A program made the translations under genes and the position numbers. The notes beneath the pieces are model-generated. The model was not told the DNA's origin, made no database searches, and was given only the letters and a program-made list of their open reading frames with translations. A stretch of 64,000 bases of DNA from Elusimicrobiaceae bacterium (lineage in GTDB: Bacteria; Elusimicrobiota; Elusimicrobia; Elusimicrobiales; Elusimicrobiaceae): NCBI GenBank assembly GCA_017475405.1, contig JAFVFN010000018.1, positions 1-64,000 on the forward strand, in the 5' to 3' direction. Shown piece by piece: positions 9,357-62,665 of this stretch (positions within the stretch are counted from its first letter, which is position 1; each line of letters starts with the position of its first letter).

Positions 9357-9440
9357 GCCGGGGTGCTGGAATTGGTATACAGGATAGTCTCAAAAACTAT
9401 TGCCCAACCGGGCTTAAGGGTTCAAGTCCCTTCCCCGGTA
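9357..9440 (+). tRNA. tRNA-Leu (anticodon CAA)
   Basis: The acceptor arm GCCGGGG 9357-9363 pairs with CCCCGGT 9433-9439, ending in a G-U pair, and A9440 is the discriminator. Anticodon stem ATAGT/ACTAT holds the loop CTCAAAA with anticodon CAA at 9391-9393. A long class II variable arm (GCCC/GGGC) and the T-loop GGTTCAAGTCC fit a leucine tRNA. CCA is not encoded. Its last bases are repeated at 17030, so the gene may be an integration site. Confidence 0.93.
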
Positions 9441-9596
9441 TACCTTAACGAGAGCTACTTTTAGAAGTGGCTCTCTTATTTTTCTCATTTTCTCATCGTA
9501 AAAATATTGACGTATTTAGAACATTGGGGCTATTAGAACAGGTTATAGTGCCAGCAAAATGTCGACATAAAAGTCCCCACCAAAATAGCGAATCTT
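9437..9596 (+). repeat. direct repeat, left copy, starting in the tRNA-Leu 3' end
   Basis: 160 bp matching 17030-17189 with only three substitutions by eye. It begins with GGTATACC, which includes the last bases of the tRNA. It contains a terminator-like hairpin (GAGAGCTAC/GTGGCTCTC followed by a T-rich run) at about 9450-9483. The two copies bracket a 7.4-kb segment, as attachment-site repeats do. Confidence 0.8.
9449..9487 (+). terminator. terminator of tRNA-Leu
   Basis: GAGAGCTAC and GTGGCTCTC form a 9-bp stem with one G-U pair and a short loop, followed by TTATTTTTCT. The same hairpin is duplicated in the right repeat copy. Confidence 0.6.
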
Positions 9597-9908: not shown

Positions 9909-12900
9909 TTATTTCCCTTCTCTCCATCCGCGTTCTATCTCTTCCATTAGCGAATAATCGTTGGTTTGTTCTCTGTGATTATTTGTAGACTGTTGGACGA
10001 TAGGTGTTTGTATAGGTATGGTATTTATCTTTTTGATTGAAGGTTTAGCTACATGTTTGACCTGTTTAGACTTACTTGCCTTTTTGCCGCCAAACGCATA
10101 GCGTATACCCGCATGCACACCCCAACCTTTTACTTTCTCACTGGCTTCATAACTACCTAAGCCGTACCAATACAGGTTATCGGTTAATTGCATATTAAGT
10201 CCGGCGTTGATTTCAGCAGTGCCGCCTTTGAGGTCACTCTGTGCACTGGCTCCGCCATAGGACACTTTACCTTTCCCGTCAAATTCATAGCGGTACGCCA
10301 GTTCCAACAACGGTTCAATTAACAGCCCATTACTGCGAACCGCATTATAAGCTAACAATACTCCCGCCTTGGCATTTATGTAATTAGCCGCATCATACTT
10401 GAGCTTATTGTCTGTATTGGATACATCTGCACTGGCCGAGGCCGCGTTCATATACCCTACTTCTACTTTGGGTTCTATGCGGATAAACTTATTACGGGAT
10501 AACTCTTTGTTAAAGCTCTTCCCCGCTTCCACACTGGCCGCTAATACATTGCGGCTTGGCTTATAGGCCAACTCTGTACCATCACTGGCCTGGTTCTTCA
10601 TATCCAGCTTGCTCCAGAAGTTACGTGCCGCTATATCTACAAACCAGCCGTTTTCATTAACTAAGGTAGCATATACACCTACTCCCGGGGCTTCTCCGTC
10701 CCCTTTATCGTATGCCCCCTTATCATTTTCGGTCTTAATGCTATTGGCCGCTACAAAGCCCACTAATACACCCGCATACAGTTTTGTGGGTTCATCCGCC
10801 CTAAACAACCAGTCATACCCGGCCTCCGCTCCAAACAGGTTCATATCTGTCTTGGTTAAGTCCTTTACGGTCATATCTTTGTAATAACTGCGCACCCATA
10901 CACCTTGCTTGGCATCCGGGTTATTCATGGCCCGTAAATCCCCTAAACGCCGCTGTAATGAGTTCATGCCCGTTTGTGCTATCATCGCATTCATAACAGG
11001 GATATTAAGCATCGTCTTGAAGGTGTCGGTTAGTTCATGGGTACTGCGTAAGTAATAATCGCCACCTTCCCCTGCTTGTGTACCTTGCTCCAGCTTATAC
11101 ACATAACCGCCTTCATCCCATTGTCCCCCTACTAAGCCAAATGTACCGTTTACCGTAGCATTACTGCCAAATTCTACCAGCTTAATACCATCGTTGGTTG
11201 TTTCTTTGGCACTGGATGCTATATTGGTTAATTTTAAGTTGGCATTACCTGTATAGCTGTCCGTAATACTCAACTTATCGGCTGTTTGTTCTTCCAGGTC
11301 CACATTCATATTAAATGTGGCATTATTAGCAGATAAATTAGCCATGGCAAGTGTAATCATATCACCTATATGTCGGATATTTACATGCACATCGGCTAAC
11401 GTAATGTTACCCTGTAACGTATTATCCCCATATACATTAAGTGCTCCGCCTGTAGCTGTAAAACCACTGACAGTACCTCCTGTATACAGATTAACTGTCC
11501 CATTGGCAAGTGTCGTATCAACGGCTGTACCACCGGATGATATATTTTGTGTCCCACCATCTATTTGAGTATTGCCTGCAATGCCTCCGGATAATATGTT
11601 TTGGGTGCCTCCTTTGTAGATATTAGTGTAGTTGGCACTTCCTTGTACATTTTGCAGACCACCACTATTAATGGAAGTCAAACTCGCAATACCGCTTATA
11701 ACATTTTGCACACCACTTGCGTTAATCTCCGTGAAGTCTGCACTGCCCCCTAAAATATCTTGTATGCCTCCCCCATACAGATGCGTATTTTGTGCAAGGC
11801 CATTAGACAATGTTTGTGTTCCATTACTTATATAAGTCTGATTAACAGTACCATTGATAATATTTTGCGATCCTCCTGCTTGAAAATAAGTACCATCAAC
11901 AATTCCTGCATATATATTTTGAGTTCCACCAGAAATAATGGTTTCTCCTACTGCCCATATACCTGTCGAAAAAACATTTTGTATCCCCCCTGAATTTATC
12001 GTTGTATTGTGAGCAGAACCACCCGAAGATACATTTTGCACACCTCCAGAGTTTATGGTAGTAACTCCACTCGCTATACCTCCAGAAAATACATTTTGAA
12101 CCCCACCATTATTGATGATGATATCTTTAGTCACTCCACTATTCGTAACAACAACAGTACCGCCAGAATTAATAATAGAACTACTCAATACCCCACTAGA
12201 AGATACTATTTGAGTACCACTATTGTAAACGATTGCGCCATCAACAATACCACCATTAGCAATGATTTGACTACCACCAGCTTCAATAGTAGTATTATTC
12301 GCTCTTCCATAATAATGAATATATTGTTCTCCTCCCGATTGTATAGTAGTATTGTTAGCAATTGCACCCTGCTCAACAAATTGCGACCCAGCAGATCTAA
12401 TAATAGTATCATTGGCCACACCACTAAAAGCGATAACCTGACTACCGTAGGGATTTATTATTGTATTACTTGCAACTCCTCCTCGACTTATTGTTTGTAA
12501 ACCACCCGAGTTAACTATCGTACCACTTGCCTTAGCACTAGAGGATACAATCTGATTTCCTCCGAAATTTATAGTAGTGTCTATTGCACTTCCACTATGA
12601 AGATTTTGATATCCATTAGAATTAAGAATAAAATTGCTAGCAATTCCATTAGATAATAAAAAGCTTTCACCTTGTTCATTTGTACCCGATATATATGTAC
12701 TTCCTCCTGCAATATCCCACATATCCAACCCAATTGCACCACCAGAATTCTGAACAACATTATACGCTTTTCCACCCAAAGAAACTTCCTGATATCCACC
12801 AGAATTAATTGTTATATTGCTAGCTACTCCACCAGAACTAATGATTTGATGCCCCCCGAAATTTACCACTGTATCACTTGCTAAGGCACGATGAGAAACA

Positions 12901-14204
12901 TATTGCTCACCACCAGAGTTTATGTTCGTTCCTGTTGCTATACCACTAGATAAAATATATTGACGACCTCCATCATTAATATTTGTATCACTCGCGCTAG
13001 CACTAGAACTCACATATTGATAACTATCAGAATTTAGTGTAGTACTATTAGTAACCCCTCCCCGCGAAATAAACTGACTACCGCCATTAACAATTGTATT
13101 ACTAGCAACACCGCCAATAACAATATACTGATAACCCCCATTAATTACAGTATCTCGAGCAATACCTTCTACTCCAACATATTGAGTGGCAGAATTAATC
13201 GTTGTACTACTGGCTATACCACTATTGCTAATGTATTGATAACCATCTGAGTTTAAAGTTGTACCACTTGCCATTCCTCCCGATCCAATAGTTTGGTATC
13301 CTCCCGAATTTAGAATAGTGTCTATTGCCACTCCGTTATTATGAATATACTGTGATCCATACAAAATAAAATTACTAGCAACCCCACTAGATAACGAAAA
13401 ATCTTCTCCTTGCTCATTGATTCCCGATATATATGCAGGTCCAGTTTCTACTTGCACATAAACCCGTCCACCCGAATTTTGAATCACATTATAAGCTTTT
13501 CCTCCATTAGATACAATTAGCGCGCCCCCAGAGTTAAGCGTTGTACCACTTCCTATCCCAAAATTAGTAAGGTATTGAATCCCTCCTGAATTAATTGTAG
13601 TATCATACGTTACTCCATTTTGAATAACATATTGCGAACCTCCAGAATTGATTATTGTATTGATTCCTATCCCTGTGTATTCAATACGTTGATTGCCTCC
13701 AGAGCTGATTGTTGTATTGCTTACAATACCTCCAGAACTAACATATTGCCATCCACTTCTAATGATCGTATCATTGGCCAAGCCATTAGACAATACTCTC
13801 TGTTCGCCATTTACAAAAATGTATGTACCATTTGCTGTGCCGCCATTATATATAATCTCTTTGCCTCCCCATGCACTAGTATTTGAAGTAATACCATATA
13901 CTTGAACAGTTGTTCCACTTCCTGCCGACAAATTACTACTTGTCATATTAGAATTTACTACGATTGTCGCACCATAAACAGGCAGAACCATATTGTTGGC
14001 AAGTATTGCCCCAACGGTTGCCGTATAAATAGCTTGTCTACCGCCGTTATATATACGAGATATCATTCGTTCTCCAAACCCACGACTGGACACCAAGCAC
14101 GGACTAATTACAGCTGCGCTACAGCTGGAACAATACTGATCTTCTAGTGCTTGCACGCAAGCACTAGAGTAAATATTTTCGGTTTTTAAGTGGTATTTAG
14201 ACAT
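9909..14204 (-). CDS. AIDA-I-type autotransporter adhesin
   Basis: 1431 residues. An extended N-terminal region is followed by a hydrophobic signal segment (about 58-80). A passenger of roughly 85-970 is built from dozens of 19-20 residue strand-loop-strand repeats around the pattern NSGGxQxVSSGGxA, the AIDA-type beta-solenoid. A linker leads to the outer-membrane beta-barrel at about 1130-1370, starting near GVWVRSYYKD and ending WGVHAGIRYAF. A 60-residue Lys/Gln-rich tail follows the barrel, which is unusual because such barrels normally end at the last aromatic residue. The gene starts 9 bp after the heptosyltransferase gene, behind AGGAG. By analogy with AidA/TibA, the repeats are likely O-glycosylated and mediate adhesion or aggregation. 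Confidence 0.9.
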   Translation of the reverse strand: MSKYHLKTENIYSSACVQALEDQYCSSCSAAVISPCLVSSRGFGERMISRIYNGGRQAIYTATVGAILANNMVLPVYGATIVVNSNMTSSNLSAGSGTTVQVYGITSNTSAWGGKEIIYNGGTANGTYIFVNGEQRVLSNGLANDTIIRSGWQYVSSGGIVSNTTISSGGNQRIEYTGIGINTIINSGGSQYVIQNGVTYDTTINSGGIQYLTNFGIGSGTTLNSGGALIVSNGGKAYNVIQNSGGRVYVQVETGPAYISGINEQGEDFSLSSGVASNFILYGSQYIHNNGVAIDTILNSGGYQTIGSGGMASGTTLNSDGYQYISNSGIASSTTINSATQYVGVEGIARDTVINGGYQYIVIGGVASNTIVNGGSQFISRGGVTNSTTLNSDSYQYVSSSASASDTNINDGGRQYILSSGIATGTNINSGGEQYVSHRALASDTVVNFGGHQIISSGGVASNITINSGGYQEVSLGGKAYNVVQNSGGAIGLDMWDIAGGSTYISGTNEQGESFLLSNGIASNFILNSNGYQNLHSGSAIDTTINFGGNQIVSSSAKASGTIVNSGGLQTISRGGVASNTIINPYGSQVIAFSGVANDTIIRSAGSQFVEQGAIANNTTIQSGGEQYIHYYGRANNTTIEAGGSQIIANGGIVDGAIVYNSGTQIVSSSGVLSSSIINSGGTVVVTNSGVTKDIIINNGGVQNVFSGGIASGVTTINSGGVQNVSSGGSAHNTTINSGGIQNVFSTGIWAVGETIISGGTQNIYAGIVDGTYFQAGGSQNIINGTVNQTYISNGTQTLSNGLAQNTHLYGGGIQDILGGSADFTEINASGVQNVISGIASLTSINSGGLQNVQGSANYTNIYKGGTQNILSGGIAGNTQIDGGTQNISSGGTAVDTTLANGTVNLYTGGTVSGFTATGGALNVYGDNTLQGNITLADVHVNIRHIGDMITLAMANLSANNATFNMNVDLEEQTADKLSITDSYTGNANLKLTNIASSAKETTNDGIKLVEFGSNATVNGTFGLVGGQWDEGGYVYKLEQGTQAGEGGDYYLRSTHELTDTFKTMLNIPVMNAMIAQTGMNSLQRRLGDLRAMNNPDAKQGVWVRSYYKDMTVKDLTKTDMNLFGAEAGYDWLFRADEPTKLYAGVLVGFVAANSIKTENDKGAYDKGDGEAPGVGVYATLVNENGWFVDIAARNFWSKLDMKNQASDGTELAYKPSRNVLAASVEAGKSFNKELSRNKFIRIEPKVEVGYMNAASASADVSNTDNKLKYDAANYINAKAGVLLAYNAVRSNGLLIEPLLELAYRYEFDGKGKVSYGGASAQSDLKGGTAEINAGLNMQLTDNLYWYGLGSYEASEKVKGWGVHAGIRYAFGGKKASKSKQVKHVAKPSIKKINTIPIQTPIVQQSTNNHREQTNDYSLMEEIERGWREGK

Positions 14205-14213
14205 TATTTTCTC

Positions 14214-15548
14214 CTATTTATTATCTTCTTTCGGGGCGGTTAATTTACAATCTTTCATCAGCTGTTCAATCTGTCTGATCACTTGCTTTCCCGTTATAAG
14301 GCGGGTACACTCATACTGGCGGTCCGTATTTTTAAACTTCGGACACCAAAAATAATCATAATGATCAAAGTTGACATTCACATCATCCCAACATCCGTTA
14401 CATCCGTGGCTGTTAAATACCCGGTACGGGGTATAGAACTCACAGATAGGAAGCGTAAACCCGCTGATAAGTACTACCGGTATATGCGTACACCACGCCA
14501 GCCACGTCAGTCCGGAACTAAGTCCGATAAAAAAGTCTGCGTGTTCCAACAGCTCTATACGCTCCTGCAAAGGTCTGTCTCCTGTAAAGTCTTCCGCGTC
14601 ATGCGGCATCCGGTTCCAGGTATACTTAAACCCTGTTACAGGCTCTTTATCCATACACATCACTCTGTATCCCAGGCCTTTCAGATAAGATACCACCTGC
14701 TCCCAGCCGTATCCGTTGTTCCAGAACTTGGCCTGTGAACTGGACTTAGTCGCTATACATACATACCTCTCCTGGATAGTGCGTTTACTGCCCAGTTTTA
14801 CTTTGGGAGCTTCTTCTCGGGGGTCTACCCCTAAGATATACCCTGCTGTGCGGTGTAAACCCACCTTCCTAAAGTCTATGGGTTGATGCGTATCATTGCC
14901 CTTAAAAAATAGTCCCAGCATATAGCTGGCATAGGGTTTTTCAAAACGAATTTTGCCGGGTAAATGGGTAAAAAATAAATTGGGATATTGCCCTTCAAAT
15001 ACGGTGGCTAAGTTACCCGCCATGGTAACTTCGGCGGCACATTGGTGCTTTTGCTGGAAACGGTCTGCATACGTCATCCAGCCGATAATATCGCCCAAAG
15101 TCCCTACCGGAAATTTAATCTGTACTTCTTTACCTTTAAGGTCTAATGTATGGTTTAAAATGGGTTCTTTTTCTCCGCGTACCCAGACTCGGATCCGAAA
15201 CGGGATATAATACTTCTTAGTACTCAGTACCCACCCTTCATCCGCGTCACAGGCAAAGATAATATTATCGGTTTCGTCATCTTCTATTTGTACGTGCCAT
15301 TTACCTTTGGGCAGTAACACCCGTGCTCCGTCATTAAAGTCATAGCGAATACCCATCGGGCCTTCCTGTGTAGGAATGGCAGGAGCATTGACTATAAACG
15401 GGTTCTGGGCCTGTTGCGGATGGGTAGTTACGGACGCTGTTACATCTTGCGGAGCCTGTGTCGCGGAATTTGCCGCGGCTACACCCTGCTGTGTTTGAGT
15501 AGAATTAGCCGATGTAGAAATAGTTTCTAAATTGGTATTTTTATCCAT
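14214..15548 (-). CDS. autotransporter strand-loop-strand O-heptosyltransferase (Aah/TibC type)
   Basis: 444 residues. A low-complexity Ser/Thr/Gln/Ala N-terminus (1-65) comes before a beta-rich domain and a glycosyltransferase domain with FPVGTLGDIIGW (about 150-161) and the HADFFIGLSSGLTWLAW donor-site region (about 330-346). The C-terminal cysteines in LPICEFY, HGCNGCWDD, YFWCPKF and YECTRL match the iron-finger known from TibC. These enzymes add heptoses to Ser/Thr in AIDA-type repeats before secretion. The modifying gene directly precedes its likely substrate, the same order as aah-aidA and tibC-tibA. Confidence 0.88.
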   Translation of the reverse strand: MDKNTNLETISTSANSTQTQQGVAAANSATQAPQDVTASVTTHPQQAQNPFIVNAPAIPTQEGPMGIRYDFNDGARVLLPKGKWHVQIEDDETDNIIFACDADEGWVLSTKKYYIPFRIRVWVRGEKEPILNHTLDLKGKEVQIKFPVGTLGDIIGWMTYADRFQQKHQCAAEVTMAGNLATVFEGQYPNLFFTHLPGKIRFEKPYASYMLGLFFKGNDTHQPIDFRKVGLHRTAGYILGVDPREEAPKVKLGSKRTIQERYVCIATKSSSQAKFWNNGYGWEQVVSYLKGLGYRVMCMDKEPVTGFKYTWNRMPHDAEDFTGDRPLQERIELLEHADFFIGLSSGLTWLAWCTHIPVVLISGFTLPICEFYTPYRVFNSHGCNGCWDDVNVNFDHYDYFWCPKFKNTDRQYECTRLITGKQVIRQIEQLMKDCKLTAPKEDNK

Positions 15549-15602: not shown

Positions 15603-16424
15603 CTAGAGCACATCCTGCTCTGTAATTTGTTGTTGCGTAAACTCAGATGCCTGATCCTGCACTTTGACATTTATTTTCTTATTGCGTCGCTGTTTTTTCT
15701 GTTTGTTAGGATCATAGGGATTATTCCGCCCCTCTGGTAAAGGTAATATCTGAGTAAAACACGCGTAGATACGAGGAGTAAGTTTGTTTACCTCTGGCAA
15801 ACTTTTATTTAGTTTCTTTTGAATCACTTTACATAAAGTTTTAAATACTTCTTTCTGTCTTAAACATACAATTATGTTCTCCGTAGAAATAGTATTTTGT
15901 ATATCAGCATAATTTCGACGGAACTTAGCTGCAATTTTTGCATGGAAAATATGAAATTTTTCACAATATTGTTGGGTAATACGATCTGGTAAATCCATAA
16001 AATCAACTTCAGCAAATTTTTGTCTGTCCTTTTTTGTTTTCCCAAATGGATACCAATAAAATTCCCAACGAATCCCATCTGTTAATATCCCCCACTCACA
16101 AACATTTGCACGGCAATACAAATCTAATTGCTTTTGTGCATCTTCATTTAATTGACTTTTTGAAGCATTATACTTCTTTCCTTCACACATGATCGTAGCA
16201 CCAGGGTGTTGGATTGCCAAATCTACGTGTTTATTACTAATATTTTCTTGTGGTAACAACCAATCGCGCTGATATCCAAACGCATCTATCAATAGATCCT
16301 GTATTAAATTAATACTTACGGCCTCTAAGGGCTTATTTGCTTTTAAAATTTCCCTAATATGTTGTGAATGTTTACGGATTCCAGCATGCAATTTATCTTT
16401 ACTCCATTTATCTAGTTTTATCAT
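15603..16424 (-). CDS. HsdR N-terminal-domain-like (PD-(D/E)XK-type) protein
   Basis: 273 residues. The region from about 35 to 150 resembles the free-standing type I restriction R-subunit N-terminal domain: LIQDLLIDAFGY, then VDLAIQ and CEGKK give the Asp and Glu-x-Lys of a PD-(D/E)XK core, followed by QLDLYCRA and WGILTDGIRWEFYW. The rest is helical and ends in a basic Lys/Arg stretch. There is no helicase, methylase or specificity gene nearby, so it is not a complete restriction system. The start ATG at 16424 has AAGGAG. It is the first gene behind a P1-P6 leader RNA and may share a transcript with the heptosyltransferase and autotransporter (54-nt gap, no clear terminator). Confidence 0.7.
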   Translation of the reverse strand: MIKLDKWSKDKLHAGIRKHSQHIREILKANKPLEAVSINLIQDLLIDAFGYQRDWLLPQENISNKHVDLAIQHPGATIMCEGKKYNASKSQLNEDAQKQLDLYCRANVCEWGILTDGIRWEFYWYPFGKTKKDRQKFAEVDFMDLPDRITQQYCEKFHIFHAKIAAKFRRNYADIQNTISTENIIVCLRQKEVFKTLCKVIQKKLNKSLPEVNKLTPRIYACFTQILPLPEGRNNPYDPNKQKKQRRNKKINVKVQDQASEFTQQQITEQDVL

Positions 16425-16451
16425 TTGGTCTCCTTATTTGAGTTTTAATAC

Positions 16452-16672
16452 AATGTTTCATATAAAACAAAAGACGACTGCTATTTGAGTGATTCTGAAC
16501 TCTCAAATAACAGCCGCCTACCCATACTGATATCAAATCAAACATGGGGTTACTCGCTAACAGAATCGGGTAATTAGTCCGTTCCAGTTAGCAATAGCGA
16601 CGTTTTTGGTTCAGAATCACTTTTACTTCCGTAAAAGAGTGGGCTTAATTGCCCTCCAAAAACAGTATCAAT
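16452..16672 (-). promoter_or_regulatory. structured P1-P6 leader RNA, copy 7 (upstream of the island operon)
   Basis: Minus strand. P1 pairs CTGTTTTTGG (16665-16656) with CCAAAAACG (16609-16601). Inside it are hairpins GGGC-aattaa-GCCC and CTTTTAC-ggaa-GTAAAAG. GTGATTCTGAAC (16620-16609) is perfectly complementary to GTTCAGAATCAC (16500-16489), which lies in the loop of the 14-bp P6 stem (16515-16502 with 16489-16476; one G-U and one other wobble by eye). The layout equals that of the six pilin leaders, but most sequence differs, including the loop helix. Downstream is the HsdR-N-like gene, not a pilin. TACAAT stands 5 nt before P1. Confidence 0.72.
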
Positions 16673-16689
16673 TGTAATCAAGCCACATT

Positions 16690-17029
16690 TAAGGCTTATT
16701 TAAAACGTTAAAGTCTCCTTATAAACTATTTTTTAACTACATATATAATAAGCTAAAACATTATAACAGTTTGTTTTAGCTGTTTAATCGTTAGTTGTGT
16801 AAAATAACCAATTAATTTATTATAACTTATTTCAGTATCACAAAGGGCATAAATAAGCTAATTTTTAAAATTTTTTTAAATTAATTACGTAGTAATACTA
16901 TGGAAAGCCAAAATCGTTCTTATAAATTAGTACATTTATACTGCGCTAAATGACTTTTTAGCTGTCTTACTTCTCTGGCTCGTTCCATTGTAGCTGTTAT
17001 ATAGGAGTTCCAAAATACATCCTGTTTTG
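16690..17029. other. AT-rich gene-free stretch of the island
   Basis: No supported gene. AGCTAAAACA (16751-16760) and TGTTTTAGCT (16772-16781) form a perfect 10-bp stem and may be a terminator. A short minus-strand reading frame across 16920-17108 runs into the right direct repeat and has no recognisable product; it is best read as debris. Confidence 0.4.
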
Positions 17030-17189
17030 GGTATACCTTAACGAGAGCTACTTTTAGAAGTGGCTCTCTTATTTTTCTCATTTTCTCGTCGTAAAAATAT
17101 TGACGCATTTAGAACATTGGGGCTATTAGAACAGGTTATAGTGCCAGCAAAATGTCAACATAAAAGTCCCCACCAAAATAGCGAATCTT
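17030..17189 (+). repeat. direct repeat, right copy
   Basis: Matches 9437-9596 (157 of 160 bases by eye). It includes the GGTATACC of the tRNA end and the terminator-like hairpin, but not the rest of the tRNA. It marks the right boundary of the island-like segment. Confidence 0.8.
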
Positions 17190-19735: not shown

Positions 19736-19980
19736 GTAGTAATACTTAAAATTTAATCTGTTTTTGGAACCGTATAAGGAATACGGAGTACTTTTGGGAG
19801 ACCAAGAGTCTGAGAGAACGTCAAAAGCAGCCAATTAGAAACACGAAATAGTAGGCACTGCAAACCGACTATTTTGTGTTGAATGTTTATTGCTTTATGC
19901 AATAAACTACGGCTGTGCACATGGGACTGTTCTCTCAGCTCAAGTGCAACAGCCGTTTGTTATACGTTTACCCGAACAGA
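19736..19980 (+). promoter_or_regulatory. structured P1-P6 leader RNA, copy 1 (pilin)
   Basis: P1 pairs CTGTTTTTGG (19758-19767) with TCAAAAGCAG (19821-19830), with hairpins CCGTAT/ATACGG and CTTTTGG/CCAAGAG inside. CTGAGAGAAC (19810-19819) is perfectly complementary to GTTCTCTCAG (19929-19938) in the loop of P6, whose arms are at 19910-19920 and 19944-19955. A conserved AACAG at 19975-19979 precedes AGGAGA and the pilin ATG. TAGAAT at 19724-19729 is the likely -10. No terminator separates it from the gene. Confidence 0.8.
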
Positions 19981-24571: not shown

Positions 24572-24604
24572 AATATCTCCTTATAGGAAATTCCCTATAA
24601 GGAG

Positions 24605-24632
24605 AAGATATCAAAAAAAAAAAACAATGCAA
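24605..24632 (-). promoter_or_regulatory. poly-T spacer promoter of the pilin at 24092-24571
   Basis: Minus strand: TTGCAT at 24632-24627, a 16-nt spacer made of TG, T12 (24624-24613) and GA, then TATCTT at 24610-24605. Confidence 0.6.
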
Positions 24633-24664
24633 GCGTTATTTAGTTTCGTGATTTTTTTGTATCG

Positions 24665-25769: not shown

Positions 25770-26010
25770 GACGTAAGAAAATTTAATCTGTTTTTGGAAC
25801 CGTAATAGATACGGTGCACTTTTGGAAACTCCAAGAGTTCAGTTTCAGTCCAAAAACAGCCGATTTAGGCAAAAACAAGTATGGGTAGCACCCAGATGTG
25901 TTTTTGCTGAATGTTTGTCATCCTTTAGGAATGACAGACTACGGCTGTTATGGCTGGGGCACTGAAACTGACTCTTCCATGGCAGTCGTTTTATTTGGAT
26001 TCATAAACAG
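25770..26010 (+). promoter_or_regulatory. structured P1-P6 leader RNA, copy 2 (pilin)
   Basis: P1 pairs CTGTTTTTGG (25788-25797) with CCAAAAACAG (25850-25859). Inner hairpins are CCGTA/TACGG and CTTTTGG/CCAAGAG. TCAGTTTCAGT (25839-25849) matches ACTGAAACTGA (25961-25971), an 11-bp loop helix abutting P1. P6 pairs 25942-25953 with 25977-25988, partly through G-U. AACAG stands at 26006-26010. TGTTATAAT (hexamer 25758-25763) is the promoter -10. Confidence 0.82.
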
Positions 26011-37161: not shown

Positions 37162-37412
37162 GTAGTAGAAATTAAAATTTATTCTGTTTTTGGAACCGTT
37201 TAAGAAACGGAGAGCTTTGGATTTTCAAAGTACTATTGTGCTCCAAAAACAGCCGATTTAAGGCATAAGATAGTGGAACTTATAATCCCGTTATTTTGTG
37301 CCAAGTGTTTCCCGTATTCTGCTGTTGCAGAACCGGGGAGCCACGGCTGTTCAAGTTGGGTTCGCACAATAGGCCTGACGGGTAACAGCCGTTTTATTGG
37401 TTTCATAAACAG
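37162..37412 (+). promoter_or_regulatory. structured P1-P6 leader RNA, copy 3 (pilin)
   Basis: P1 pairs CTGTTTTTGG (37184-37193) with CCAAAAACAG (37243-37252); hairpins CCGTTT/AAACGG and CTTTG/CAAAG lie inside. CTATTGTGC (37233-37241) matches GCACAATAG (37364-37372). P6 arms are CGGCTGTT (37344-37351) and AACAGCCG (37384-37391). AACAG recurs at 37408-37412. The -10 is TATAAT at 37150-37155 with TG in front. Confidence 0.82.
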
Positions 37413-47036: not shown

Positions 47037-47257
47037 ACAATTTAACTGTTTTTGGAACCGTTTAAGAAACGGGTAGCTTTTGGGAAATACCAAGAGTTTG
47101 CTTCTAGGCCAAAAACAGCCGATTTAGGTACAGCGGAACCGTACATTCTGTTGTGCCAAGTGTTTCCCGCTTATATAAGTGGGAAGCCGCGGCTGTTAGC
47201 CTGGGTTACCTAGAAGCAACTCACGGCTGACAGCCGTTTTACGCGGTTTCATAACAG
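47037..47257 (+). promoter_or_regulatory. structured P1-P6 leader RNA, copy 4 (pilin)
   Basis: P1 pairs CTGTTTTTGG (47046-47055) with CCAAAAACAG (47109-47118); hairpins CCGTTT/AAACGG and CTTTTGG/CCAAGAG lie inside. TTGCTTCTAGG (47098-47108) matches CCTAGAAGCAA (47209-47219). P6 pairs CGGCTGTTAGCC (47190-47201) with GGCTGACAGCCG (47225-47236). AACAG is at 47253-47257. The -10 is TGCTATAAT with hexamer 47025-47030. Confidence 0.84.
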
Positions 47258-56372: not shown

Positions 56373-56591
56373 ACAATTTAACTGTTTTTGGAACCGTATA
56401 TGGCATACGGGGGTTTGCTTTAGCAAATACTCAATCACTCCAAAAACAGCCGATTTAGGTGCAAGATAATAGGCTTTATAACCCCATTATTTTGTGCCAA
56501 GTGTTTACCGCTATGGTAAACCACGGCTGTTATGGTGTGGTTCGTGATTGAGTCTACTCTGTAACAGCCGTTCTTATGGGTTTCATAACAG
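56373..56591 (+). promoter_or_regulatory. structured P1-P6 leader RNA, copy 5 (pilin)
   Basis: P1 pairs CTGTTTTTGG (56382-56391) with CCAAAAACAG (56440-56449); inner hairpins CCGTAT/ATACGG and TTTGCT/AGCAAA. ACTCAATCAC (56429-56438) matches GTGATTGAGT (56544-56553). P6 arms CGGCTGTTA (56524-56532) and TAACAGCCG (56562-56570). AACAG at 56587-56591. -10 TATACT at 56361-56366. Confidence 0.84.
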
Positions 56592-60297: not shown

Positions 60298-61227
60298 ATG
60301 GAACACAGCGCGAAAATTTTACTGGCCGATGATTCACATGCCATTCGGTTTTTGGTAACCGAAATCCTGACCAACGCGGGATTTACAGTGATACAAGCCG
60401 AAGACGGACAAGAAGCCATCGAAAAAACCTATAAAGAAAACCCAGACCTGCTTATCTTAGACTACGAAATGCCGAAAAAAACCGGTTTTGACGTTGTCAA
60501 AGAAGTACGCAGTCGCACGGGATACTTACATACCCCTATTATTATTTTTACCGCTGTAACCGATAAATCTACCAAACTTGAGGGACTGGGACTGGATATT
60601 GATGACTACCTGACCAAACCGGCCGATGAAGATGAAATCGTGGCACGCGTCAAATTGCTTCTTAAGCGCAGTCAACAGAGAATGGATTCCAACCCGCTCA
60701 CACATCTGCCCGGTAATCCCTCCATCCAAGCACGCGTAGAACGCGAGATTGCCAGCGAAAAACCGTTTGCCGTCTTGTATTGTGACCTGAATAATTTTAA
60801 ATCTTTTAACGATAAATACGGCTTTGAAGCCGGAGATCGCGTACTCAAAACAACCTCTGAGATTATTGTAAACGCGGCCCATCAAGATCCGACCGCATTT
60901 GTAGGACATATTGGTGGGGATGATTTTATTGTGGTTAGCTCCTTTGACAAAGCGGAACCAATCGCCCAAGAAATTACCGCGCAGGTAGACAAAATAGCTC
61001 CTACGTTTTATTCCCAGCAAGATCAGGCGCAAGGATATATGATTTCCACAAACCGCAAGGGCGAAGAAGAAAAATTTCCGTTTTTGGCCATGGGCATCGG
61101 CATTGTACATAATACTCGCCGTCCACTTACTTCGTTTGCCATGGTCAGCAATATCGGAAGTGAACTCAAATGCCTTGCCAAACAACATGAAAAGGGCAGT
61201 TATTATATCATGGACAGAAGGAGCTAA
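60298..61227 (+). CDS. response regulator with GGDEF-like domain
   Basis: 309 residues. A receiver domain (1-125) has DD at 11-12, the phospho-acceptor Asp55, Thr85 and Lys107. A GGDEF domain follows (about 135-305); the signature is GGDDF at 206-210 in place of GGDEF/GGEEF, and LTHLPGN occupies 134-140. The changed acidic residue may lower or abolish diguanylate cyclase activity. No histidine kinase is next to it. It could set c-di-GMP levels or act as a receptor. Confidence 0.85.
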   Translation: MEHSAKILLADDSHAIRFLVTEILTNAGFTVIQAEDGQEAIEKTYKENPDLLILDYEMPKKTGFDVVKEVRSRTGYLHTPIIIFTAVTDKSTKLEGLGLDIDDYLTKPADEDEIVARVKLLLKRSQQRMDSNPLTHLPGNPSIQARVEREIASEKPFAVLYCDLNNFKSFNDKYGFEAGDRVLKTTSEIIVNAAHQDPTAFVGHIGGDDFIVVSSFDKAEPIAQEITAQVDKIAPTFYSQQDQAQGYMISTNRKGEEEKFPFLAMGIGIVHNTRRPLTSFAMVSNIGSELKCLAKQHEKGSYYIMDRRS

Positions 61228-62453: not shown

Positions 62454-62665
62454 ACAATTTATCTGTTTTTGGAACCGTATAAGGATACGGACCTCTCTTA
62501 AGAAAAGAGATATATTTGATCCAAAAACAGCCTATTTAGGTACACAAGGACGGCCATCCGCGTGTACCAAGTGTTTCCCGTTTATACGGGAAACCACGGC
62601 TGTTTTGTGAGAGGGTTCAAATATACTCAAACTTAATAGCCGTTTTTTTGTACTTTCCATAACAG
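62454..62665 (+). promoter_or_regulatory. structured P1-P6 leader RNA, copy 6 (pilin)
   Basis: P1 pairs CTGTTTTTGG (62463-62472) with CCAAAAACAG (62521-62530); hairpins CCGTAT/ATACGG and CTCTT/AAGAG inside. TATATTTGA (62511-62519) matches TCAAATATA (62617-62625). P4 is a perfect GGTACAC/GTGTACC. P6 arms CGGCTGTT (62597-62604) and AATAGCCG (62635-62642). AACAG at 62661-62665. -10 TGTTATACT with hexamer 62442-62447. Confidence 0.83.

Follow-up and report, generated by a model that had tools for sequence, protein, structure and literature searches.

An RNA family that precedes pilin genes also heads an autotransporter operon in an Elusimicrobiaceae bacterium

Judged by its sequence and predicted fold, the minus-strand RNA upstream of an autotransporter operon in an Elusimicrobiaceae bacterium (assembly GCA_017475405.1) genuinely belongs to the family found before the pilins of the same window, the window being the whole stretch of 64,000 nucleotides analyzed (contig JAFVFN010000018.1, positions 1 to 64,000). 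On balance, folding models and the order of the pairing strands favor reading this leader as a cis-acting transcription attenuator of riboswitch type. To call it a leader shared by the accessory surface and restriction genes of host-associated Elusimicrobiota fits better than to call it a tag of mobile DNA. The RNA family is new and uncatalogued; its functional kind is known, while its copy number and its loop helix are unusual.

The core of the minus-strand leader is about 195 nt long and consists, in order, of P1, P2, P3, a strand J, P4, P5, and P6, followed by a U-rich tract, a Shine-Dalgarno sequence, and the ATG of gene 1 at 16424. The features of this copy are listed below; percentages of paired cells and covariation refer to an alignment of 20 relatives.

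16760 to 16765, minus strand: candidate –10 box TATAAT upstream of the leader
16715 to 16720, minus strand: 5' AAGGAG element without a start codon
16680 to 16697, minus strand: P0 hairpin AAGCC...GGCTT upstream of the core, 91% of cells paired
16471 to 16665, minus strand: leader RNA core, P1 to P6
16656 to 16663, minus strand: P1 5' strand GTTTTTGG (CTGTTTTTGG in relatives), 99.5% of cells paired
16641 to 16654, minus strand: P2 hairpin GGGC/GCCC, both-side covariation in 6 of 7 pairs
16620 to 16637, minus strand: P3 hairpin CTTTTAC/GTAAAAG, covariation in 6 of 7 pairs
16609 to 16621, minus strand: J strand AGTGATTCTGAAC, 13 bp with the P6 loop, with a 9-bp core
16602 to 16609, minus strand: P1 3' strand CCAAAAAC, paired with 16663 to 16656
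16597 to 16601, minus strand: tail GTCGC, candidate antiterminator strand complementary to the P6 5' strand
16556 to 16592, minus strand: P4 hairpin, apical part GGACTAATTACCC, 97 to 100% of cells paired; identical apical sequence in a second family (f15)
16521 to 16548, minus strand: P5 hairpin, 97.5% and 79.5% of cells paired in its two parts
16472 to 16519, minus strand: P6 hairpin, terminator-like with the U-tract, strands 16519 to 16502 and 16489 to 16472, 100% of cells paired
16488 to 16500, minus strand: P6 loop strand GTTCAGAATCACT, partner of J in the 13-bp loop helix (16621 to 16609 with 16500 to 16488)
16460 to 16471, minus strand: U-rich tract after P6 (TTTTGTTTTATA)
16430 to 16435, minus strand: Shine-Dalgarno sequence AAGGAG of gene 1

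The whole leader folds at –71.7 kcal/mol, compared with –43.8 ± 3.8 kcal/mol for shuffled sequences (z = –7.3), and P6 alone reaches –25.8 kcal/mol (z = –6.9). Together with the match to the covariance model described below, this fold confirmed the architecture that a preliminary description had proposed for this copy, namely, P1, two hairpins (P2 and P3), and a loop helix. The P6 of 14 bp given there measures 17 to 18 bp, and the earlier sketch lacked hairpins P4 and P5 between P1 and P6; the loop helix spans 13 bp here.

Upstream of the core, the AGGAG element and P0 form a 5' module that is common to non-pilin copies and rare in the pilin copies of this genome: an AGGAG-like motif at –75 to –25 was found in 95% of the subtype and 61% of other non-pilin copies, compared with 12% of the pilin copies. 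In most subtype copies, the element lies about 50 nt upstream of P1 and opens no reading frame; in two (L162 and L163), it is followed by ATG-TAA. The TATAAT at 16760 to 16765 is a candidate –10 box, and a similar box stands upstream of the AGGAG element in many relatives of the subtype. The apical loop of P4 (e.g., positions 16581 to 16567 of the window) falls into a few discrete types that recur across species (GGACTAATTACCC, GGAAGTCATGAGCC, CTGATCCC, TTGCAA, and CGGCCA), and these might resemble interchangeable docking modules.

Membership in the family was assessed with two covariance models. R1 was built from 12 aligned pilin leaders, 6 from the window and 6 from elsewhere in the genome, leaving out the minus-strand copy. 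It recovered that copy with 46.4 bits (E = 1.5e-11), as well as a second one 157 kb away (40.6 bits); R2, built from 100 sequences of many species, scored the minus-strand copy at 92.4 bits. The R1 search also located the following members of the family before pilins of the window.

19758 to 19959, plus strand: leader before a pilin
25788 to 25992, plus strand: leader before a pilin
37184 to 37395, plus strand: leader before a pilin
47046 to 47240, plus strand: leader before a pilin
56382 to 56574, plus strand: leader before a pilin
62463 to 62646, plus strand: leader before a pilin

The match to a model from which it had been left out, and the same P1 to P6 and J:loop pairing with covariation, place the minus-strand copy among these leaders. 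That it has little sequence in common with them, as had been noted, is true only in relative terms, since it is 50% identical to the pilin leaders and those leaders are 57% identical to one another.

Covariation was measured on 20 subtype copies drawn from this genome and from congeneric species, with the loop helix included in the structure. Paired cells amounted to 96.2%, versus 85.1% in shuffles, and both sides had changed in 39 of 76 pairs. The covariation score was 0.380, compared with 0.181 after shuffling and 0.06 to 0.09 when the partners were slid. In the J:loop helix, the 9-bp core was 100% paired and 8 of its 9 pairs covaried. Over 99 copies of all kinds, J paired with its own loop at a score of 24.5, versus 12.0 ± 2.5 in trans, and 97% of copies beat 95% of the trans pairings. 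The fold energy and this covariation rule out a chance fold, and the frequent G-U pairs and covariation in the leader copies rule out a repeat acting at the DNA level. Rfam 15 gave no gathering-level match in the window other than tRNAs, a sensitive scan of the minus-strand copy reached a best E value of 1.6, and six relatives had no Rfam 15 match either. In the open-access literature, which leaves most subscription journals outside, we found no paper on such a leader.

Three genes follow the minus-strand leader, with intergenic gaps of 54 and 9 bases.

15603 to 16424, minus strand: gene 1, HSDR_N/MTES_1575-like PD-ExK protein (weak match of its own; assigned through homologues)
14214 to 15548, minus strand: gene 2, Aah/TibC-type autotransporter O-heptosyltransferase (TIGR04414, E = 3.7e-176)
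9909 to 14204, minus strand: gene 3, AIDA-type autotransporter with 19 heptosylation-target repeats

The assignment of these genes as an HsdR-N-like protein, a heptosyltransferase, and an autotransporter was confirmed; homologues of gene 1 match HSDR_N_2, and the HSDR_N match of gene 1 itself (20 bits) lies below the Pfam cutoff. Distant gene 1 homologues (22 to 23% identity) occur in three other genomes of the genus, and the leader stands directly upstream of all three (125 to 171 bits), showing that the link between the RNA and the gene 1 family is not an accident of one island. At the two loci read, the gene 1 homologue is followed by an exported protein.

In the 1.68-Mb genome, R1 and R2 searches found about 129 copies of full length. 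Of these, 122 stand before genes with a type IV pilin N terminus (120 by motif scan; L069 and L107 escaped the scan and were recognized as pilins by sequence reading). Nearly all pilin copies lie 20 to 59 nt before the start codon. Three of the other seven precede surface-polysaccharide genes (one GT2-like, one GT4-like, and one TupA-like, by sequence reading), one precedes a type III restriction-modification (R-M) operon, one precedes the minus-strand operon, and two have no clear gene behind them. The copy at the R-M operon, 81% identical to the minus-strand copy and its nearest relative in this genome, heads a complete system with Mod and Res (NF012027 cutoff passed). This system (L155:3738-8332 and 10652-11686) lies beside a tyrosine recombinase in a second island on the same contig. 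The roughly 120 leader-bearing pilins have a mean pairwise identity of about 41%. Over 114 leader-pilin pairs, leader distances hardly tracked pilin distances (Mantel r = 0.07, a value reached in 44 of 500 permutations), which rules out inheritance as a single leader-plus-pilin unit.

Outside this genome, the first genes behind the leader encode GT2, GT8, and GT9 glycosyltransferases, LicD, pyruvyl transferases, outer-membrane proteins, lipoproteins, TPR and zinc-ribbon/TM2 proteins, a sulfatase-family membrane protein, pilins, EcoRI-type and N6/N4 DNA methyltransferases, and HSDR_N-like proteins. Most non-pilin copies in other species precede glycosyltransferases, LicD, pyruvyltransferase, lipoproteins, or outer-membrane proteins. 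The covariance search thus found further non-pilin copies both in this genome and in other species, and the glycosyltransferase, lipoprotein, outer-membrane, and R-M genes behind them strongly support the earlier proposal that the RNA is not specific to pilins. The accompanying suggestion that it marks surface-structure genes holds for most copies but is too narrow, as DNA methyltransferases and HSDR_N-like nucleases recur among the targets.

The leader was found in 86 of 295 sampled Elusimicrobiota genomes of two families, with copy numbers that are lower bounds because eight candidates were scored per genome. Within the same family, three genera carry it, and f15 contributes five more, with up to 26 copies in one f15 genome; the listed genomes of a further family of the same order (f2) yielded none. 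Among 24 other genomes of the genus, with 60 candidates scored in each, none had more than 10 copies. An exact-pattern scan of 84,980 prokaryote species returned, among the matches listed, only Elusimicrobiota or unnamed metagenome-assembled genomes, largely from animal guts. Three f15 copies (L304, L314, and L321) represent a minimal RNA that has one hairpin fewer and keeps P1, the loop helix, and the terminator.

Several features point to attenuation. The leader lies before the start codon, on the strand of its gene, and P6 is followed in every group by a U-rich tract (on average 6.7 T in 9 nt; 7.6 to 9.0 T in 12 nt by group), so that P6 and the tract look like an intrinsic terminator. However, at least five consecutive U residues follow P6 in only 38% of the pilin copies of this genome. 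An automated terminator scan misses P6, probably because its loop limit is ≤8. Immediately behind the P1 3' strand comes AACAGYCG, which is almost a duplicate of the P6 3' strand (AACAGCCG) and can pair with the P6 5' strand, the arrangement of a P1/antiterminator/terminator switch. In 88% of 246 copies, compared with 2.7% of control windows, 8 or more of the 9 positions are complementary. The family thus has a candidate antiterminator that excludes the terminator; it is weaker in the minus-strand copy, where 7 of 9 pairs form and one base is missing after P1. Some of this complementarity (AACAG/CTGTT) follows simply from the CTGTT that P1 and P6 have in common. When the two states were forced, the minus-strand copy folded at –71.7 and –67.5 kcal/mol, a difference of 4.2 kcal/mol in favor of the terminated state, which was also the lower one in the mean over 143 copies (difference of 6.6 ± 3.7 kcal/mol).

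A hairpin after P6 that covers the Shine-Dalgarno sequence or start codon scored 18.4 in cis versus 14.5 in trans over 140 copies, in several registers. It occurs in many pilin copies of this genome; none was convincing in the minus-strand copy, in which a masking hairpin is unsupported (z = +0.67). A third pairing, between the RNA 5' end and the Shine-Dalgarno hairpin, is suggestive (Fisher test, 1e-4, confounded by relatedness; mean of 18.2 in cis versus 17.1 in trans). Downstream of the RNA, L150 and L153 have another T-tract hairpin (AGGATTCCAA-GAAA-TTGGGATCCT), and its 5' arm is complementary to the 5' end of the RNA itself (TTGGAATCCT).

We infer from this layout that the leader switches, and in the following direction. 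With P1 closed, P6 would form, J would lock onto the P6 loop, and transcription would stop. With P1 open, the P1 3' strand and its tail, aided by J, would capture the 5' half of P6; no terminator would form, and the downstream genes would be read. The J:loop pairing would also suit a P6 that is a true pseudoknot, so it need not be part of the antiterminator. Many pilin copies would add a second layer through the hairpin over the Shine-Dalgarno sequence or start codon, while in the minus-strand copy the terminator alone would control the nuclease-like/heptosyltransferase/autotransporter operon. P1 could be opened or closed by a metabolite, a protein, or temperature. One of the two states should yield transcripts that end inside the leader if P6 is a terminator, and the preliminary description, which had named such an end as refuting its reading, was therefore ill served by that test.

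Other explanations have to be weighed against the attenuator. A passive leader, in which a stable 5' structure with a terminator insulates accessory genes or protects the mRNA without switching, would fit the finding that 97% of 143 copies have their energy minimum in the terminated fold and that many copies, with a promoter of their own, stand singly among unrelated genes. We consider it unlikely, since a plain terminator or stabilizer needs neither a 200-nt fold kept across two families nor a covarying loop helix nor a tail that copies the terminator, and since a terminator between promoter and gene must be overcome for expression. It is decidedly unlikely that a protein reads the leader instead, with the RNA serving, like EAR or put RNAs, to load a factor for antitermination or translation. 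The genome has a single NusG-family gene, and hence no RfaH/LoaP-type paralogue, and no CsrA, which rules out an RfaH/LoaP or CsrA regulon; moreover, the leader lacks the ops core, and most of its targets are single pilin genes, for which processive antitermination is unneeded. Nevertheless, a shared leader before surface and polysaccharide genes recalls the settings of EAR and JUMPstart, and a factor acting in trans would account for the coordination of many genes, here one regulon of about 129. The promoter-like box just upstream of many pilin copies and the terminator-like P6 of all copies imply a free RNA of about 210 nt if termination occurs. That this would be an independent small RNA acting in trans, the downstream gene being expressed by read-through, is nonetheless extremely improbable, because the J and loop sequences are copy specific and pair in cis rather than between copies and because the position relative to the start codon is conserved.

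The RNA could also belong to mobile DNA, riding with islands and cassettes and sitting before these genes because it moves with them. The operon and its leader are enclosed by two direct repeats at a tRNA gene.

9357 to 9440, plus strand: tRNA-Leu (CAA), one end of the island (anticodon from the sequence and as in relatives)
9437 to 9596, plus strand: 160-bp direct repeat, left copy, att-like, starting in the last 4 nt of tRNA-Leu
17030 to 17189, plus strand: 160-bp direct repeat, right copy, 98% identical

Such repeats at a tRNA 3' end are those expected of an integrative island; between them, we found no integrase or recombinase, the three genes of the operon being the only ones there. RNA copies also occur in this neighborhood, marked by an SDF-family transporter gene and tRNA-Leu, in two other species, one within an 8-kb insert. 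The idea that the RNA travels with mobile DNA therefore fits the minus-strand copy and the R-M copy beside a tyrosine recombinase, but not the family: single pilins follow 122 of the 129 copies, and collections of plasmids, phages, and viral contigs contained no copies (nine pattern matches in viral contigs were only P1-like hairpins of ≤31 bits). The barely correlated leader and pilin distances would suit a mobile element; however, the RNA is always oriented with its gene, lies nearly always 20 to 130 nt before it, and folds as RNA with G-U pairs. As a general account, we therefore regard mobile DNA as highly improbable.

We know of no cis-regulatory RNA family present at about 129 copies in one bacterial genome. 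Going beyond attenuation as such, we tentatively raise the possibility, itself rather doubtful, that a single undescribed switch RNA, sensing one signal through a new aptamer and with its terminator loop held by a copy-specific helix, rules an accessory surface and restriction regulon of about 129 leaders in host-associated Elusimicrobiota. If so, the cell could trade pili, surface sugars, adhesins, and restriction enzymes together. Through such genes a gut symbiont encounters its host and its phages, and the leader marks them in a phylum with few cultured members. It offers a concrete 200-nt molecule with a predicted two-state fold and a covariance model able to annotate hundreds of genes now filed as unregulated pilins; should a ligand or factor be found, it would serve these bacteria as a master signal for surface identity.

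Among known systems, terminator-type riboswitches such as SAM-I share with the leader a 5' position, a compact multihelix domain closed by P1, a P1 3' strand common to P1 and the antiterminator, and a terminator with a U-tract before the gene. Unlike them, the leader has no Rfam match, pairs its terminator loop back to the domain over 9 to 13 bp, occurs in about 129 copies in one genome, and serves surface and restriction targets rather than one pathway, with no ligand named by the downstream genes. Like EAR and JUMPstart/ops leaders, it is a structured leader common to surface-polysaccharide operons, but it lacks the ops core (GGCGGTAG) and an Rfam match, its genome has no RfaH/LoaP paralogue, and it stands mostly before single pilin genes. 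c-di-GMP riboswitches likewise control pili and surface genes from many copies per genome, and this genome encodes three GGDEF proteins, one of them a response regulator in the window (60298 to 61227, plus strand); the leader differs from these riboswitches in length and architecture and matched no known aptamer family in the Rfam scan.

Type III R-M phasevarions offer a further comparison: phase variation usually affects surface genes and type III R-M genes, and both classes carry the leader RNA here; in contrast to phasevarions, no repeat-slippage mechanism was seen in the leader, and the common feature is the RNA fold. Five minus-strand promoter-like sites of the window (7989, 24624, 37127, 53125, and 234) read TTG..T12-GATA, with exactly 12 T in the spacer, and four of them precede pilins without the leader RNA. 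The T12 tract, if variable in length, could be a source of phase variation. At 24580 to 24634, a Shine-Dalgarno sequence lies inside a perfect hairpin (CTCCTTATAGG/CCTATAAGGAG). Finally, as in the AIDA-I/Aah and TibA/TibC operons, the heptosyltransferase gene of the minus-strand operon adjoins that of a self-associating type of autotransporter, but unlike those operons, it is preceded by an HSDR_N-like gene and the leader RNA.
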